Source: a virus
Strand: one strand, 5' to 3'
IMG/VR virus record: IMGVR_UViG_3300048445_000076
Span: 1-30,084 of that record
Length of the DNA: 30,084 bases
Part shown: positions 22,292 to 29,356 of the stretch, one piece after another
Layout of the letters: every line of letters starts with the position of its first letter
Numbering within the stretch: the first letter of the stretch is position 1
Notes under the pieces: model-generated
Seen by the model: the letters and a program-made list of their open reading frames with translations, nothing else
Databases searched by the model: none
What the model was told of the DNA's origin: nothing
Position numbers and translations under genes: made by a program

Positions 22292-22442
22292 CTCTATATA
22301 AATTACAGAAAAAGGGCCTAAAAAGGTGAACACTTTTCATACTTTTCAGTTATCTTTATAGAACAGAAGTAGATCTGTATAAGCTACCAAACTTGTGAAT
22401 GTCTTGTAAGACTATACCTCACTTGGATCAGACACTCTCAGT

Positions 22443-22631
22443 TTAGCAATTGCGGTGTTCATCTTTCATAACCTTTGTACAGCCCCCAGCACCATTCAAG
22501 CTAACCGTTTTTCTTTCATTATTTAAGGTTATAGAGGGGGTAGTAAAACATTTCGAGTAACCCCTTAGCTGTAATGCTATCCATTCAGCAGTTAGGCTAA
22601 CAAGTAAGTAAAGCATAAAATGGTTTTCCAT
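22443..22631 (-). CDS. doubtful small open reading frame (62 aa)
   Basis: The frame begins MENHFMLYLLVSLTAEWIAL, so it has a hydrophobic N-terminal stretch, and ends in a Cys-containing charged tail. Its AUG lies inside a perfect hairpin (AAATGG-AAAA-CCATTT on the minus strand), and a 28-codon frame (MQLDEINPFLRRGCLCSKNR...) ends five bases upstream. No family is recognised, and the surroundings are rich in hairpins and stop codons. It may be a real small membrane peptide or a chance frame within a structured RNA. Confidence 0.3.
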   Translation of the reverse strand: MENHFMLYLLVSLTAEWIALQLRGYSKCFTTPSITLNNERKTVSLNGAGGCTKVMKDEHRNC

Positions 22632-22790
22632 TTTTATTTCCCAACCCGCCTACCCGATTTCCTGTTTTTAGAACAGAGGCACCCCCGTCTCAAAAAGGGG
22701 TTGATTTCATCTAACTGCATAACTAACACCCTAGAACATTCATATTACGTCTAAATACTTGCAGATCCGTGAGAGCATCTCTAGATACTA

Positions 22791-22913
22791 TCAATTTATA
22801 ATAGTTTGTGATCCTATCTTATATCGTTTCTGTATGTGAGCTGTAAATTTAGTTATCGTATATAGGTGAAATGATATTGAGTTGATATTGTTTGAGCTGT
22901 TTATATCTATCAT
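22791..22913 (-). CDS. doubtful small open reading frame (40 aa)
   Basis: The frame begins MIDINSSNNINSISFHLYTI and continues TKFTAHIQKRYKIGSQTIIN. It has a plausible alternation of polar and basic residues and lies after the terminator of the small-gene cassette. There is no overlap with a secure gene and no known family. The chance of a 40-codon frame in AT-rich DNA is substantial, so confidence is low. Confidence 0.3.
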   Translation of the reverse strand: MIDINSSNNINSISFHLYTITKFTAHIQKRYKIGSQTIIN

Positions 22914-23037
22914 CCTTACATTATCTATTTATCAAAGCTTTGCTAAATATCACCAGCAGCAAAGCAGCCTATAAAACAAAGCTATTTTAATGCTGTTTAA
23001 AGCTGTTTTATACTGTTATTTATAGGTAACTATAGGC

Positions 23038-23066
23038 CATAAAAAAAGGCCTATTAAAAGGCCTTA
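23038..23066 (-). terminator. rho-independent terminator of the small-gene cassette
   Basis: Minus-strand stem AAGGCCT/AGGCCTT with an AT-rich loop, followed by seven T residues. It lies about 25 bases after the stop of the 55-residue gene and closes the unit that starts at the promoter near 24680. Confidence 0.8.
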
Positions 23067-23088
23067 AATTGTGGTTTTATATGTTGGT

Positions 23089-23256
23089 TTATATGTATAC
23101 TCTTAGTTGAGTATATTTGCTATCTGGATCGCTTAAAGTTTGCATACAACTTTTATAAATCTTTGTTGATCGGTATCTATTACAAAGCTTTGAGCGTGTA
23201 TTATAGTGCTTTATATTGTCTTTTATATAGCTCAATTCAAATTTATATAAGTACAT
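23089..23256 (-). CDS. small basic protein, last gene of the cassette (55 aa)
   Basis: The frame reads MYLYKFELSYIKDNIKHYNT and continues with many Lys, Arg and Tyr residues (CNRYRSTKIYKSCMQTLSDP), ending TQLRVYI. It starts five bases after the stop of the 66-residue gene and ends just before a strong terminator, exactly where the last gene of the operon should be. The protein is basic, with strand-like ends, and could bind nucleic acid, but no family is recognised. Confidence 0.55.
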   Translation of the reverse strand: MYLYKFELSYIKDNIKHYNTRSKLCNRYRSTKIYKSCMQTLSDPDSKYTQLRVYI

Positions 23257-23260
23257 ATAT

Positions 23261-23461
23261 TTATAGTTTTATATCGTTTTTAATGCAGCTAATTACGGCA
23301 AAAGATCCCGATCCGTAAATATATATACTTTTGTATCTGTTTAGATCGTCTGTAAGTATGTACGTTTTATCTTTGCGTATTATTACAAAATCTTTTTTGC
23401 TGTTTCTTATCTGTTTCTTTTGATTAGCTGGTAAGCTGTTTATAATTGTGATCGTTTCCAT
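23261..23461 (-). CDS. small cassette protein (66 aa)
   Basis: The protein begins METITIINSLPANQKKQIRN and continues SKKDFVIIRKDKTYILTDDL, ending with a strand pair (YIYGSGSFAVISCI). It looks like a compact alpha/beta domain. Its first codons (ATGGAAACGATCACAATT) closely resemble those of three upstream genes, with AACA before the AUG. It lies between the GP88-like gene and the 55-residue gene. No family is recognised. Confidence 0.7.
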   Translation of the reverse strand: METITIINSLPANQKKQIRNSKKDFVIIRKDKTYILTDDLNRYKSIYIYGSGSFAVISCIKNDIKL

Positions 23462-23475
23462 TGTTTTAAGCTTTA

Positions 23476-24273
23476 TTAAATTAAATTTCCTTTATCGTCT
23501 GTTTGAATTACAAAACCGCTTTGATCCTTTTTTGCGTCACCTTTGGCACGTAAACCCAATATAATACCTTTGTGAGTAATCATTAAATCATCTCTTTGAT
23601 CCGCGTCTATAACTGTAGCACCTAGATAGGTTTTTGGCAATGCATTACTAAATACTACAGCTGTATTAATACCGTGATCAATTGCGCGCGCTGTTTCCAG
23701 TTGATTATCCTCTTTGCGGGAAAAAGTGACGTAATAATTTGGGTGCGCTATATATTTTTCAGCTTTGCCTAAAATAGCTGTATAATCATAAAAAAACGCG
23801 TGATCGCTTAAATTAGTTATATCCAAATTAGCATATTTTAAAAGCAAATAAACAAAATCTAAATCGCTGGTACCATTGAGACGAAACGCAATTTTATAGT
23901 TTCCTTTTTTAGCTTTGTTATAAGCTTTGACGATCTCAATGGATAACTGTATTATAAATTGCCTTTTGTTACTTAGAAAATATTCAGTTTTATTAATGCG
24001 CGCATTTTGTACATTGTTAAATTTCCCGCGACCAGCTGTAAACAGACAAGCAGCAGCGCACCCTTTACTAGCTTTTGGGCAAAGATTAATACCTTTACTA
24101 TTTTGTTTATAGGGTGCTAAATACAATATAAACGTTTTTAGATCGTTTTTAGCTGTTTTCGCGTTCGTTGATCCCTTACTTAAAATAGGCCTTTTGTATT
24201 GTGGATCGTTTCCAGCTGTTGTAGGCTGGTTAAAAATATTGTAAATAAGGTCAATTGTTTCTTTTGTTTCCAT
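23476..24273 (-). CDS. GP88/DUF7227-like cysteine-rich protein (265 aa)
   Basis: The protein shows the order I associate with the 'gene product 88' family of phages and mobile elements. It has RPILSKGSTNAKTAKND, then KGINLCPKASKGCAAACLFT (Cys65, Cys72, Cys76) with AGRGKFNNV, then FRLNGTSDLDF, then HAFFYDYT and YYVTFSR. It ends with VIDADQRDD and KGIILGLRAKGDAKK. The three clustered cysteines could hold an iron-sulfur cluster or zinc. The biochemical function of the family is unknown to me. It is the largest gene of a separate cassette with its own promoter and terminator, inserted between the terminase and tail modules. Cargo such as host takeover or defence is an inference. Confidence 0.75.
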   Translation of the reverse strand: METKETIDLIYNIFNQPTTAGNDPQYKRPILSKGSTNAKTAKNDLKTFILYLAPYKQNSKGINLCPKASKGCAAACLFTAGRGKFNNVQNARINKTEYFLSNKRQFIIQLSIEIVKAYNKAKKGNYKIAFRLNGTSDLDFVYLLLKYANLDITNLSDHAFFYDYTAILGKAEKYIAHPNYYVTFSRKEDNQLETARAIDHGINTAVVFSNALPKTYLGATVIDADQRDDLMITHKGIILGLRAKGDAKKDQSGFVIQTDDKGNLI

Positions 24274-24284
24274 TGTTATAAAGT

Positions 24285-24494
24285 TTATATAGTGAATAAA
24301 TTGATTAAAATAGCATTAAGCAGCAAAGCAAATGTAAAGAGCTGCAATATTGCAACTGTATAAAGTAAATCAGTTTCTGTAATCTTTATACGTTTTTTAG
24401 CTTTTAAGCTTTGCAGCTGGTTAAAAGATCCTTTATTACCGTAGTTAAAAGGATCACATCCTTGCGATTTTGGCGCTGTTTTAATTGTTTCCAT
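24285..24494 (-). CDS. small cassette membrane protein (69 aa)
   Basis: A polar N-terminal half (METIKTAPKSQGCDPFNYGN, with several lysines further on) is followed by one hydrophobic segment at about residues 44-67 that reaches almost to the C-terminus, so the protein is probably tail-anchored in the inner membrane. It starts with the shared ATGGAAACAATTAAAAC sequence of this cassette. It lies 11 bases before the GP88-like gene. No family is recognised. Confidence 0.65.
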   Translation of the reverse strand: METIKTAPKSQGCDPFNYGNKGSFNQLQSLKAKKRIKITETDLLYTVAILQLFTFALLLNAILINLFTI

Positions 24495-24506
24495 TTGTTG
24501 ACGTTT

Positions 24507-24626
24507 TTAGTAATTGTTTTTATCTGTTAATTCATAGTAAATAATAGATGATATTATAGTAATACCTAAAATTGCAGCAGCTGTTAAAGCTGCGATCGTT
24601 TCGAAATTAAAAGTAATTGTTTCCAT
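24507..24626 (-). CDS. tiny membrane protein, first gene of the cassette (39 aa)
   Basis: The frame begins METITFNFETIAALTAAAIL and continues GITIISSIIYYELTDKNNY, so most of it is one membrane helix (about residues 9-31). It lies directly downstream of the clear Bacteroidota-type promoter and starts with the shared ATGGAAACAATTAC sequence. Twelve bases separate it from the next gene. Position and the shared start support translation; the role is unknown. Confidence 0.62.
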   Translation of the reverse strand: METITFNFETIAALTAAAILGITIISSIIYYELTDKNNY

Positions 24627-24658
24627 TTATGTTTTTTGTTTTAATTGTTTCTATGGAT

Positions 24659-24692
24659 CAAATATACAAATAATTTTTAACCCACAAACAAA
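24659..24692 (-). promoter_or_regulatory. Bacteroidota-type promoter of the small-gene cassette
   Basis: On the minus strand TATATTTG (24659-24666) matches the TAnnTTTG -7 element, and TTTG lies 18 or 22 bases upstream (two adjacent copies, 24685-24692), close to the usual -33 spacing. The 39-residue gene starts 33 bases downstream. This is the best promoter in the window. Confidence 0.78.
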
Positions 24693-24740
24693 AGTGAGTT
24701 TTTTTTTGTTTTTTTTTCATCCCTTATATTTTTTCTTTTG

Positions 24741-24849
24741 CTGGTGATCGGGTGACGGGATCGGATCACAAAAATAAAAAAGCGGGTGAGATCGGATCGG
24801 GATAAGATCGGGATCTTTTAACCTGGTGATCTGGTGACGGGATCGGATC
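24741..24849. repeat. GATC-rich direct repeat
   Basis: A 27-base unit occurs at 24741-24767 and 24823-24849 with one mismatch (it starts CTGGTGATC and ends GGGATCGGATC), offset 82. Between them lie further GATCGGATCGGG-like pieces. Ten GATC sites fall within 104 bases (24746-24849), and the block is GC-rich compared with its surroundings. It sits in the non-coding region between the terminase gene and the cassette promoter. A replication origin, packaging site or methylation-sensitive element is possible. Confidence 0.7.
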
Positions 24850-25022
24850 GGGTGATATATATTGTATCCCGCACACGTATACGCAAAAATAATTTGATGG
24901 AAAGAAAAATCGCTCTTATTTACTCTCATTTTCGTGAGAATATCGCTAAGCCCAGTGTTTATGCGGGTTCACAGAGGTTTGCTCCCATTTTGGCCTTATC
25001 GAAAATTGCCAAACCCAAAAAA

Positions 25023-25173
25023 CCTACTGCGTTTAACGATAAACCTACTGCGTTTAAGAGATTATCTACTGCGTTTAAGGGCCAGATCACACAAACCTAC
25101 TGCGTTTAACGACGAAACCCTGGAGAAACCTAGGAAAACCTACTGCGTTTAAGAGAATACCTACTATGTTTAA
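25023..25173. repeat. six 14-bp iterons (CCTACTGCGTTTAA)
   Basis: Copies start at 25023, 25044, 25065, 25096, 25139 and 25160. Four are identical; the third starts TC and the last reads CCTACTATGTTTAA. Offsets are 21, 21, 31, 43 and 21 bases, about 2, 2, 3, 4 and 2 helical turns, so a protein bound to each would lie on one face. The array lies about 90 bases beyond the terminator that follows the large terminase gene. Iterons of this kind suit a replication, partition or packaging protein; the binding partner is unknown. Confidence 0.82.
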
Positions 25174-25217
25174 GAACTGGAAGGGGTTCCAATAGTTCCA
25201 ATGCTTCCATTGCAGTA

Positions 25218-25252
25218 GTTGCAGTTTCTTCAGTTGTTGCAGTTTCTTCAGT
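25218..25252. repeat. 18-bp tandem repeat, two copies
   Basis: GTTGCAGTTTCTTCAGTT is followed directly by a copy that matches at 17 of 18 positions. It lies between the iterons and the terminator after the large terminase gene, within the same non-coding block (24693-25347), where I see no gene. Confidence 0.6.
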
Positions 25253-25261
25253 AAAGGGAAT

Positions 25262-25290
25262 AAAAAAACCCCCTACTATTGTTCGGGGGC
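25262..25290 (-). terminator. rho-independent terminator after large terminase gene
   Basis: Minus-strand CCCCC/GGGGG stem with an 11-base loop followed by seven T residues, about 58 bases beyond the stop of the large terminase gene. Confidence 0.87.
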
Positions 25291-25347
25291 TTAGTTTGGT
25301 TTCTGCAACCAATGATGTTCGACAAGACAAATATAGTAAATTATTAT

Positions 25348-26559
25348 TTACCTCACAACATATTTTCCAGAATTTACACCTTGGGCTAAATATTGCAGTC
25401 CATATCGTATTGCATCCACAAAATGGTCGTATCCTTGACGAGGTTTTTCGTTTCTTTCTTGCCAAGCATAGTTATTGAACTCCTTTATAATACCATTAGA
25501 ACCTCTATCGACAATGATCTCGTAATCTTGCATAAGAGCTATTCCACTTAATATACTACCTTTCTTCTTAATCGTAGGCTTTATATTGAGTCCTAACTGC
25601 TTAAGCTCATTAACTAATCTGGGTTCAGAGTTATCTGCAATGATTAAATCTAAACCGCATTCGGCCTTGTTGGCCTCTGCTATTTCAGTAGTAGACATAT
25701 TAGGTTTCCCATATACTTCTTTGACCCACATCTTTCTACTTTCCTTATCTATCGATATTTTTACAAGTGTGGTTGGATCTGTAGAGAATCCCCAGTCTTG
25801 TCCGTACACCGTATGCTCTGTTTGTACGTAGTCACCTACTCTCCAGTTGCGGATGATAGTTCCTTCAGCTTTTGCTAACCATCCACCCAATATTTGGTGC
25901 TGGAACTTGTCTGGACGCCTAACTTTCATCTCCAATACTTGCTGTAGGAATGAATCTGATAGGTTTTTCTCATTATCTCGGTAATCTGTGTGTATAAAGG
26001 TCACATCATCTTGTTTTCCATTAAAACCATCGGGAATTCCTCTATTTTGGAAGAATCTTTGGTAAATCCAATGTTCTTTAGTAGTTGGGTTCAAAATTAA
26101 GACGCATCGGTTCTGTTTTTCCTTACTACGGACTGAGAAATCGATTTTATCGAACACATCCTCCTCCACAAGCTCTTCAGCCTCATCCAATACGAACGTT
26201 GTAACGCCATTTAAGGACTTTAGAGCAGCTGTTTGGTTACCAGATGAAGTCTTTATCCCTTTAAACATAATAGAGCTTCCAGTAGTCAGATTTATGATCT
26301 CGTCTTTAGTGATTCTGAACTGATCTGATACACCCATCATATCTATTTTCTCTATAAACTCTGGAATAATGGATGATTGAGCTGAAATCATCGTATATCG
26401 GGAAAAAAGCACCTTATGTCCGGGTTCATACGTTAGATTTAGCAAAAATATTGCTACTCCAAACGATTTTCCAGAACCCCTTCCTCCAGTTACTACATAA
26501 TATCTACTATCGTGCTTCCAAAGGGGAATGTACTTCTCGTGAATCTTTATTTCTTCCAT
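25348..26559 (-). CDS. terL: terminase large subunit (403 aa)
   Basis: This is the packaging motor ATPase and nuclease. Visible motifs, in order: Walker A GGRGSGKS (residues 25-32), Walker B TFVLDEAEEL (121-130), coupling motif LILNPTT (154-160), and the RNase H-like nuclease with Asp255 in GQDWGFSTDPTT, Asp309 in LIIADNSEPRL and Asp382 in HFVDAIRYGLQY. Length and pattern fit the PBSX/XtmB-like Terminase_3 group. By family knowledge it binds the small subunit, cuts concatemers, docks on the portal and pumps DNA. It starts just after a terminator and a 17-base motif. A strong terminator and an iteron array follow, which may include the packaging site. Confidence 0.95.
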   Translation of the reverse strand: MEEIKIHEKYIPLWKHDSRYYVVTGGRGSGKSFGVAIFLLNLTYEPGHKVLFSRYTMISAQSSIIPEFIEKIDMMGVSDQFRITKDEIINLTTGSSIMFKGIKTSSGNQTAALKSLNGVTTFVLDEAEELVEEDVFDKIDFSVRSKEKQNRCVLILNPTTKEHWIYQRFFQNRGIPDGFNGKQDDVTFIHTDYRDNEKNLSDSFLQQVLEMKVRRPDKFQHQILGGWLAKAEGTIIRNWRVGDYVQTEHTVYGQDWGFSTDPTTLVKISIDKESRKMWVKEVYGKPNMSTTEIAEANKAECGLDLIIADNSEPRLVNELKQLGLNIKPTIKKKGSILSGIALMQDYEIIVDRGSNGIIKEFNNYAWQERNEKPRQGYDHFVDAIRYGLQYLAQGVNSGKYVVR

Positions 26560-28360: not shown

Positions 28361-28595
28361 TGTTAAAGGATATTATTTGTATCTTATCTAAATTGTTTTT
28401 GTTTCTTCCTATGACGTCTTCAAGAGTCCAATAACGAACGTCATCTAAGGCTCTTTTAATTCCCTCGCAACCTTCGTAGTTCTCAACTTCTAAAAACGTC
28501 TCTATGACGCCCTCAAGTACCTCTACGGATACGCCTTCGTTTAACTGCTTTAGTGCAGAAAGGTAGTATTCGTATATGAGGTCTTTAGTTGTCAA
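28353..28595 (-). CDS. small acidic helical protein (80 aa)
   Basis: The protein is a series of helices: MTTKDLIYEYYLSALKQLNE, then EVLEGVIETFLEVENYEG, then CEGIKRALDDVRYWTLEDVI. It is acidic and soluble, without motifs I can name. Its start overlaps the exonuclease stop by four bases and its end overlaps the DnaA-like gene by eight bases, so it belongs to the same operon. A replication accessory role is suggested only by position. Confidence 0.7.
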   Translation of the reverse strand: MTTKDLIYEYYLSALKQLNEGVSVEVLEGVIETFLEVENYEGCEGIKRALDDVRYWTLEDVIGRNKNNLDKIQIISFNNE

Positions 28596-29356
28596 AGTAC
28601 TCCTCTTTTGACGTAGTTATTAATTGCATCCATATTGTTTTGCATAAACCAATATCGGTATGCTTCTAAGCTTTGGTCTACCTCTTGTAGCCCTTGTTCT
28701 ATAAAGTAATCAGAACATTCAAAGATAGCAATGTCTCTTGTGTTCTTATCGACTACTAAGAAGATGAATTCATCAGCTCCAAAGATATCTAAGTACAAAG
28801 CAGTCTGCAATGTATACTTAAAGTTCTTAGCACTCCACTTAAATTTCTCAATATCAGAAGTTGTCTTCAGATCAATGATTGTTTTACCTTTCATTGCATC
28901 AGCCTTACCTCTAACAGCAATGTCGCCAAACATCTTTATCCCGGGAACTTCGAATTTGCATCCTCCTAATAGTTCTCTAGCTTCATTGCAATCTGATACA
29001 GCTCTAGCAATGTATCGAGCGTTATTGTACTCAGACCTCGTATACACATTGTTTTCTCCAAACTCTTTTACCGCATCCTTGTAACCTTTAGCTACTTTGG
29101 TGGTATTTATAATATTTAATTCAGATAGCTTTTCTGGTTCTAACACCATTAAGTGGATTAGTGATCCGTCTCTTAATGCTTGTTTAGGTAAGTTGTCTGG
29201 TGCTATGAACTTCTTTGGACTAACCAATAAGTCCTTCATAGACGAGCTACTTAAAGCTTTATCTGTTCCTAAGTAATTGTAATAAAAGTCATCGTCTAAC
29301 ATCTTCGGTAAGATGTCTAACTTATCCCACTTTTCATCGTTTAATAATGTAATCAT
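28592..29356 (-). CDS. exonuclease VIII-like PD-(D/E)XK nuclease (254 aa)
   Basis: The order fits the RecE/exonuclease VIII-like group (DUF3799 type): SSSSMKDLLVSPKKF (39-50), DGSLIHLMVLEP with His68, then RGKADAMKG with Asp153, TIIDLKTTSDI with Asp162 and Lys164, and YTLQTALYLDIFG with Gln184 and Tyr188. By family knowledge these enzymes chew 5' ends of double-stranded DNA to make 3' overhangs for annealing recombination. No annealing protein (RecT or Erf type) is visible here; it may lie outside the window. The gene starts as ATGA over the stop of a tiny membrane protein gene. Confidence 0.88.
   Translation of the reverse strand: MITLLNDEKWDKLDILPKMLDDDFYYNYLGTDKALSSSSMKDLLVSPKKFIAPDNLPKQALRDGSLIHLMVLEPEKLSELNIINTTKVAKGYKDAVKEFGENNVYTRSEYNNARYIARAVSDCNEARELLGGCKFEVPGIKMFGDIAVRGKADAMKGKTIIDLKTTSDIEKFKWSAKNFKYTLQTALYLDIFGADEFIFLVVDKNTRDIAIFECSDYFIEQGLQEVDQSLEAYRYWFMQNNMDAINNYVKRGVL

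Follow-up and report, generated by a model that had tools for sequence, protein, structure and literature searches.

A probable hypervariable accessory operon with a host-type promoter and reiterated gene starts between the packaging and tail genes of uncultured marine phages

The window, by which we mean the whole 30,084-base stretch of a virus record analysed here, contains five successive open reading frames on the minus strand (23089-24626), separated by short gaps, with terL (25348-26559) to one side and the tail genes (22176 downward) to the other. In the direction of transcription, the features of this cassette are as follows.

24659-24688, minus strand: promoter of the Bacteroidota type, TTTG-N18-TATATTTG, with TTTG at 24685-24688 and TATATTTG at 24659-24666
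24637-24654, minus strand: leader copy ATAGAAACAATTAAAACA, a non-coding near copy of the start of gene 2 (17/18)
24507-24626, minus strand: gene 1, 39 aa, METITFNF; small protein with one transmembrane (TM) segment by hydropathy, with a relative in loci L002 and L003
24285-24494, minus strand: gene 2, 69 aa, METIKTAP; C-terminal TM segment, with a 61-aa relative in L002 and L003
23476-24273, minus strand: gene 3, GP88, 265 aa, METKETID; PF17338, phrog_1617
23261-23461, minus strand: gene 4, 66 aa, METITIIN; the most conserved cassette family, found in 31/33 loci
23089-23256, minus strand: gene 5, 55 aa, MYLYKFEL; a recurring family, found in 12/33 loci
23046-23065, minus strand: intrinsic terminator, hairpin AAGGCCTTTTAATAGGCCTT followed by TTTTT

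This arrangement of a promoter, five consecutive genes and a terminator between packaging and tail genes is the one described in a first-pass annotation of the sequence, and the region from 22400 to 25400 displays no DNA similarity to isolated phages. On the side of the tail genes, at 22443-22631, lies a 62-aa open reading frame with no family match, which is 98% identical in L002 within less conserved surroundings.

The window promoter displays both elements expected of the Bacteroidota main sigma factor, a TTTG/TTG about 19 nt upstream and a -7 element TAHHTTTG, which is also the promoter element of Flavobacterium johnsoniae (PMC6847099) and is perfectly represented by TATATTTG. With the spacing between -7 element and start taken from that work, transcription is predicted to begin at the A at 24654 of the minus strand. 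Relatives were collected by a TerL search, which yielded 80 loci with 73-100% identity, and the cassette statistics refer to the 33 loci that contain three or more cassette genes (197 genes in all); these loci share ancestry and the counts are not independent events, and open reading frames were called mechanically, some small genes being possibly wrong or missed. An extended promoter motif, TTG-N15-21-TAHHTTTG, precedes the cassette in 20/33 loci against 2.3 expected, and a terminator is located directly 3' of the last cassette gene in 21/31 loci against 0.9 expected. Given this excess across loci, the closed transcription unit proposed in the first-pass annotation is real and conserved over the clade, while its cargo is exchangeable.

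In the nearest loci, L002 and L003, GP88 is 89% identical to that of the window (TerL is 100% identical in L058, on the contig of L003), and all five window genes are present in identical order, rather than scattered as would be expected if they formed no unit. Elsewhere the families of gene 4, GP88 and gene 5 remain in the operon with their order shuffled, GP88 being encoded before or after gene 4. Next to the counts given above for genes 4 and 5, GP88 occurs in 22/33 loci, and many other families are found once or twice. The place of GP88 may be taken by a second GP88 subtype (L109, with a look-alike in L080; PF17338 9e-37, phrog_1392), or by phrog_7247-like (L071, L073, L081, L129), phrog_11344 (L122) or DUF7178 (L090) proteins. 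Small membrane (hydrophobic) proteins are encoded only at cassette positions 1-2, with 22 of 66 genes there against none of the 131 later ones. ParB-like and Mom-like DNA-modification genes lie between terL and the cassette in L065 (1332-2676) and L066 (2292-3636). The closest isolate is Nonlabens phage P12024L (TerL 50%, portal 35%), and hence the hosts of the clade are probably Flavobacteriaceae; P12024L is absent among the GP88 matches, carries no GP88 and differs in gene order. The relatives collected through TerL thus display this closed operon, placed after terL and before the tail genes, throughout a clade of uncultured, marine, probably flavobacterial siphophages.

Likening this unit to a moron, as was done previously, would in the classical prophage sense mean that the cargo is expressed from the lysogen to alter the host. 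The unit indeed has its own promoter and terminator, as a moron should, and is unrelated to its neighbors. However, no integrase domain was detected in the records of the window and ten relatives (a search restricted to the PF00589 type, in records that may be incomplete), and no empty-site relative was found among the terL relatives with long downstream sequence. A prophage moron is accordingly unsupported, and we regard it as very unlikely.

A CTACTGCGTTTAA-type repeat (AAACCTACTGCGTTTAA) occurs at least five times at 25020-25174, within the 650 non-coding bases that separate terL from the cassette promoter, and could constitute a protein-binding array or a packaging/replication site. Just upstream of the promoter, at 24741-24849, three copies of the GATC-rich 27-mer CTGGTGATCGGGTGACGGGATCGGATC are found. 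Other phages of the clade carry their own short repeats between terL and the cassette, CCCAGTACCTTGCA in L062, L064 and L070, and TTTAATATGATGGGGG-like ones in L078, L084, L091, L094, L098, L103 and L129, and thus repeats at this place seem usual.

Four of the five window cassette genes start with ATGGAAAC, gene 5 being the exception. Their near-identity was correctly recognized in the first-pass annotation, in which the residues were given too loosely as METI and METK; the actual starts are METIT in genes 1 and 4, METIK in gene 2 and METKE in GP88. If five cassette genes are drawn at random from the clade, at least four identical 5-nt starts are obtained with a probability of 2.9e-4, a four-fold identity that is unusual yet less extreme than it appears, since A-rich starts are common in the clade. 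One explanation for the METI starts is convergence, in which A-rich codons at positions 2-6 (GAA, ACA, AAA, ATT) would be favored for unstructured, well-initiated mRNA and the four matches would partly be luck. In accordance with this explanation, A-rich starts are the norm of the clade, a single base separates ATGAAAACA from ATGGAAACA, GP88 of L002 starts with MKT, gene 4 employs the codons GAA ACG ATC where genes 1 and 2 have the synonymous GAA ACA ATT, and GP88 of L091, L095 and L103 separately displays MET starts. Nevertheless, random draws from the clade would seldom yield four of five, genes 1 and 2 have identical codons along ATGGAAACAATTA, and the leader copy agrees at 17 of 18 positions despite being non-coding. 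We therefore consider convergence possible rather than probable, and favor a reiteration of the start within the window lineage.

The distribution of the METI starts is in agreement with such a local origin. In L002 and L003, genes 1, 2 and 4 start with METI, GP88 with MKTK and gene 5 with MRQYY; the loss of METI from close homologues, which would have spoken against the earlier proposal, is thus not observed in three of the four genes at 89% GP88 identity, but occurs beyond. None of the 26 aligned gene 4 homologues outside the window lineage starts with MET. The gene 1-like one-TM proteins encoded at position 1 of L067, L070 and L073 start with METxT, and the MET of gene 1 may consequently be ancient; L073, with METN, METP and METK, is the only partial parallel outside the window lineage. 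Over the first 12 coding bases, similarity amounts to 0.425 within a cassette and 0.421 between phages. Non-homologous pairs that share the six bases following ATG make up 2.1% within cassettes, against 0.8+-0.4% on relabelling, and this excess arises mainly from the window, L002 and L073. In 2.9 million viral contigs, the exact 20-mer ACAATGGAAACAATTAAAAC is found in seven stretches. In one of these, L036 (3173-3943), the same 20 bases as in gene 2 open the gene of a METIKT protein that resembles the 254-aa early protein of the window (28592-29356); this gene lies outside any cassette, and METI is therefore not cassette-specific. Taken as a general mark of the cassette, METI fails on the similarity values, on the MKT start of GP88 in the closest relative and on the aligned gene 4 homologues. 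As far as sequence comparison can tell, the identical coding starts are best read as a lineage-specific, local reiteration and not as a general rule.

Evidence of actual copying is provided by the leader. The copy ATAGAAACAATTAAAACA, which had been overlooked in the earlier annotation, begins exactly at the predicted transcription start; none of 20,000 dinucleotide shuffles matches as well, and L002 retains the copy, altered at one more position. Since AACAATTAAAACA is common to the leaders of L067 and the window, the start of gene 2 appears to have been drawn from the leader, which is suggested and not proven. Likewise, a 57-aa gene of L005 is preceded by a 45-nt stretch that repeats, at 44/45 positions, its neighbor's leader and start, and L004 is without that gene. 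In L066, compared with L065, a 73-aa gene is inserted exactly at the former ATG of GP88. The idea of a copied translation signal is thus upheld in at least two cases, the window leader and L005, in which new start regions appear to have arisen, as they sometimes would, by duplication of a neighbor's leader and start; it does not extend to general copying, with similarity barely above the value between phages. A general homogenisation of starts within each phage was accordingly rejected, both on the downstream values given above and on the upstream ones, where identity is 0.455 within phages and 0.448 between them.

Among 196 distinct start regions of cassette genes, 85% have A at -13, 86% at -12, 71% at -6 and 73% at -3; all four positions are A in 87/196 cassette genes and in 23/217 other genes from the same phages (P=3.5e-15). 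A Shine-Dalgarno-like motif is present in 1/196. In F. johnsoniae, which uses no Shine-Dalgarno sequence, A at -3, -6, -12 and -13 is associated with high translation (PMC6847099), and the proposal that the shared start is a translation signal for non-Shine-Dalgarno ribosomes is borne out by this match. The upstream half of the repeated start is nearly as similar between phages as within them, and it is thus a clade-wide translation context and not a copy peculiar to the window phage. A different possibility is a regulatory site, with a phage or host factor binding AGAAACAAUUAAAACA in the mRNA and switching the whole cassette, as proposed for the Start-Associated Sequences (SAS) of mycobacteriophages (PMC3203893). 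That precedent and the location of the copies, which mark four starts as well as the 5' end of the transcript, are in its favor. On the other hand, the sequence is not retained in relatives that retain the genes, gene 5 is without AGAAACAAUUAAAACA, and the upstream part is accounted for by the clade-wide translation context, all of which renders a regulatory site quite improbable.

The cargo was described in the first-pass annotation as a GP88-like cysteine protein accompanied by small membrane and small soluble proteins. The match of GP88 to PF17338 (E=3.5e-35; 122.4 bits against a cut-off of 24.4; positions 6-229 of 230 of the profile) places it in the family. Window GP88 has the invariant cysteines Cys65, Cys72 and Cys76 with C-x6-C-x3-C spacing, which is kept in a mycobacteriophage member and is C-x5-C-x3-C in the L109 subtype. 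An AlphaFold2 model built from 16 sequences (pLDDT 77.9) was compared by VIA-align, and the best 20 rows are all radical SAM enzymes, among them spore photoproduct lyase, QueE, pyruvate formate-lyase activase, ChlB, EpeE and anSME, with Z of 4.7-5.8, below 8; Foldseek of the model against the PDB returned no significant E. The three invariant cysteines occupy the loop that follows the first strand of the modelled barrel. Radical SAM enzymes have a partial TIM-barrel fold and hold a 4Fe-4S cluster after strand 1, classically with C-x3-C-x2-C, from which the unusual spacing in GP88 departs. Together, these rows and the location of the cysteines make a radical-SAM-like GP88 plausible, although unproven, and we tentatively describe the model as a radical-SAM-like barrel. 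A sequence profile of GP88 searched against the PDB matched kinases by chance only, and a literature search on GP88 function returned nothing. The fold of gene 4, predicted with confidence (pLDDT 91.9), has no convincing match in the PDB, and NCBIfam gave no useful matches. PADLOC, whose models describe defence and not counter-defence, recognized none of ten cargo proteins at E<=0.01.

Upstream of GP88, other Bacteroidota-type phages (L006-L023) likewise encode one or two membrane proteins, 25-36 aa in length; GP88 is there located near the head of a different operon at another genome position, often an early operon close to the terminase genes. GP88 homologues are also found in contigs of the named bacterial genomes of Spirosoma terrae (L039) and Uabimicrobium amorphum (L053), possibly as prophages or domesticated genes. 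One might hypothesize that the core is an enzyme system and not loose cargo, in which the tiny membrane protein or proteins accompany a radical-SAM-like GP88 that modifies a nucleotide, a nucleic acid or a peptide, with gene 4 as partner. The recurrence of tiny TM proteins just upstream of GP88 in the clade and in the other Bacteroidota-type groups, the near-ubiquity of gene 4, and the structural rows with the cysteines after strand 1 would agree with such a system. However, one third of the cassettes lack GP88 or have it replaced, yet retain gene 4 and the membrane proteins, the structural Z scores are below 8, and no tiny membrane protein is encoded upstream of GP88 in non-Bacteroidota loci (L025-L027 and one mycobacteriophage). 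We thus put the enzyme system forward as a tentative proposal.

Taken as a whole, the window cassette rather probably represents a variant of an accessory operon that is conserved yet hypervariable, with a host-type promoter, swappable cargo, local METI reiteration and early, host-directed products. As its conservation shows, the operon is driven by a promoter of the host main sigma-factor type and closed by the intrinsic terminator, and the comparison of loci shows that genes are gained, lost and reordered one by one. Statistically, most cassette genes carry their own strong Shine-Dalgarno-free start, in which A at -13/-12, -6 and -3 precedes A-rich codons, so that an incoming gene might be translated at once. 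The METI starts of the window lineage would have arisen by local reiteration, with selection for A-rich first codons adding to it. The products would comprise small membrane proteins, then GP88, possibly an Fe-S/radical-SAM-like protein, and then small soluble proteins. Based on the promoter type and the separation from the late genes, we hypothesize that they are probably early and act on the host, with host take-over or counter-defence as their most likely role. A more ambitious proposal, that the operon is a standardised expression platform in which a host-type promoter and the terminator are fixed, membrane proteins come first, and the reiterated start ensures translation and offers short homology at the start codon, so that genes could be plugged in singly, seems to us rather unlikely.

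In a widespread phage clade, the operon marks a definite site at which putative host-interaction genes, as yet undescribed, gather, with exact borders that ease the harvest of cargo. It also offers about 200 natural start regions, apparently optimised for non-Shine-Dalgarno ribosomes, which bear on the choice of start codons in Bacteroidota. In addition, GP88, a common phage protein without assigned function, gains a tentative fold prediction and recurrent membrane-protein neighbors.

Compared with the Kozak-like initiation regions of F. johnsoniae (PMC6847099), the cassette starts share the A positions, the absence of Shine-Dalgarno sequences and the TAHHTTTG element, but in the clade phages it is mainly one operon that has the strong form, more so than the other genes of the same phages. 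The nearest precedent for the repeated starts is found in the SAS of cluster K mycobacteriophages, in which a 13-bp consensus, GGGATAGGAGCCC, with a Shine-Dalgarno core is located 3-7 bp upstream of the start codons of unrelated small non-structural genes, is shared cluster-wide and is suspected to act in translation initiation (PMC3203893). Both are short repeats at the translation starts of unrelated small genes; however, the window repeat runs across the ATG into the coding sequence, is devoid of a Shine-Dalgarno core and is confined to its lineage, only A-13/-12, A-6 and A-3 being clade-wide, and the SAS consensus was not found in the A-rich cassette start regions. GP88 has the same profile as its family elsewhere (PF17338, phrog_1617; mycobacteriophage, Pelagibacter phage), including C-x6-C-x3-C, R-L-N-x-T-S-D and Y-D-Y-T, and differs in that members from the clade and from other Bacteroidota-type phages are coupled to tiny upstream membrane proteins. 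Finally, the accessory hotspots of P2-like phages and P4-like satellites (PMC9122126) also swap cargo in otherwise related phages, whereas the cargo of the clade consists of many tiny genes in one closed operon, with no known defence gene among ten cargo proteins tested. As such hotspots are themselves already known (PMC9122126), what is added here is an operon that is conserved and little described.
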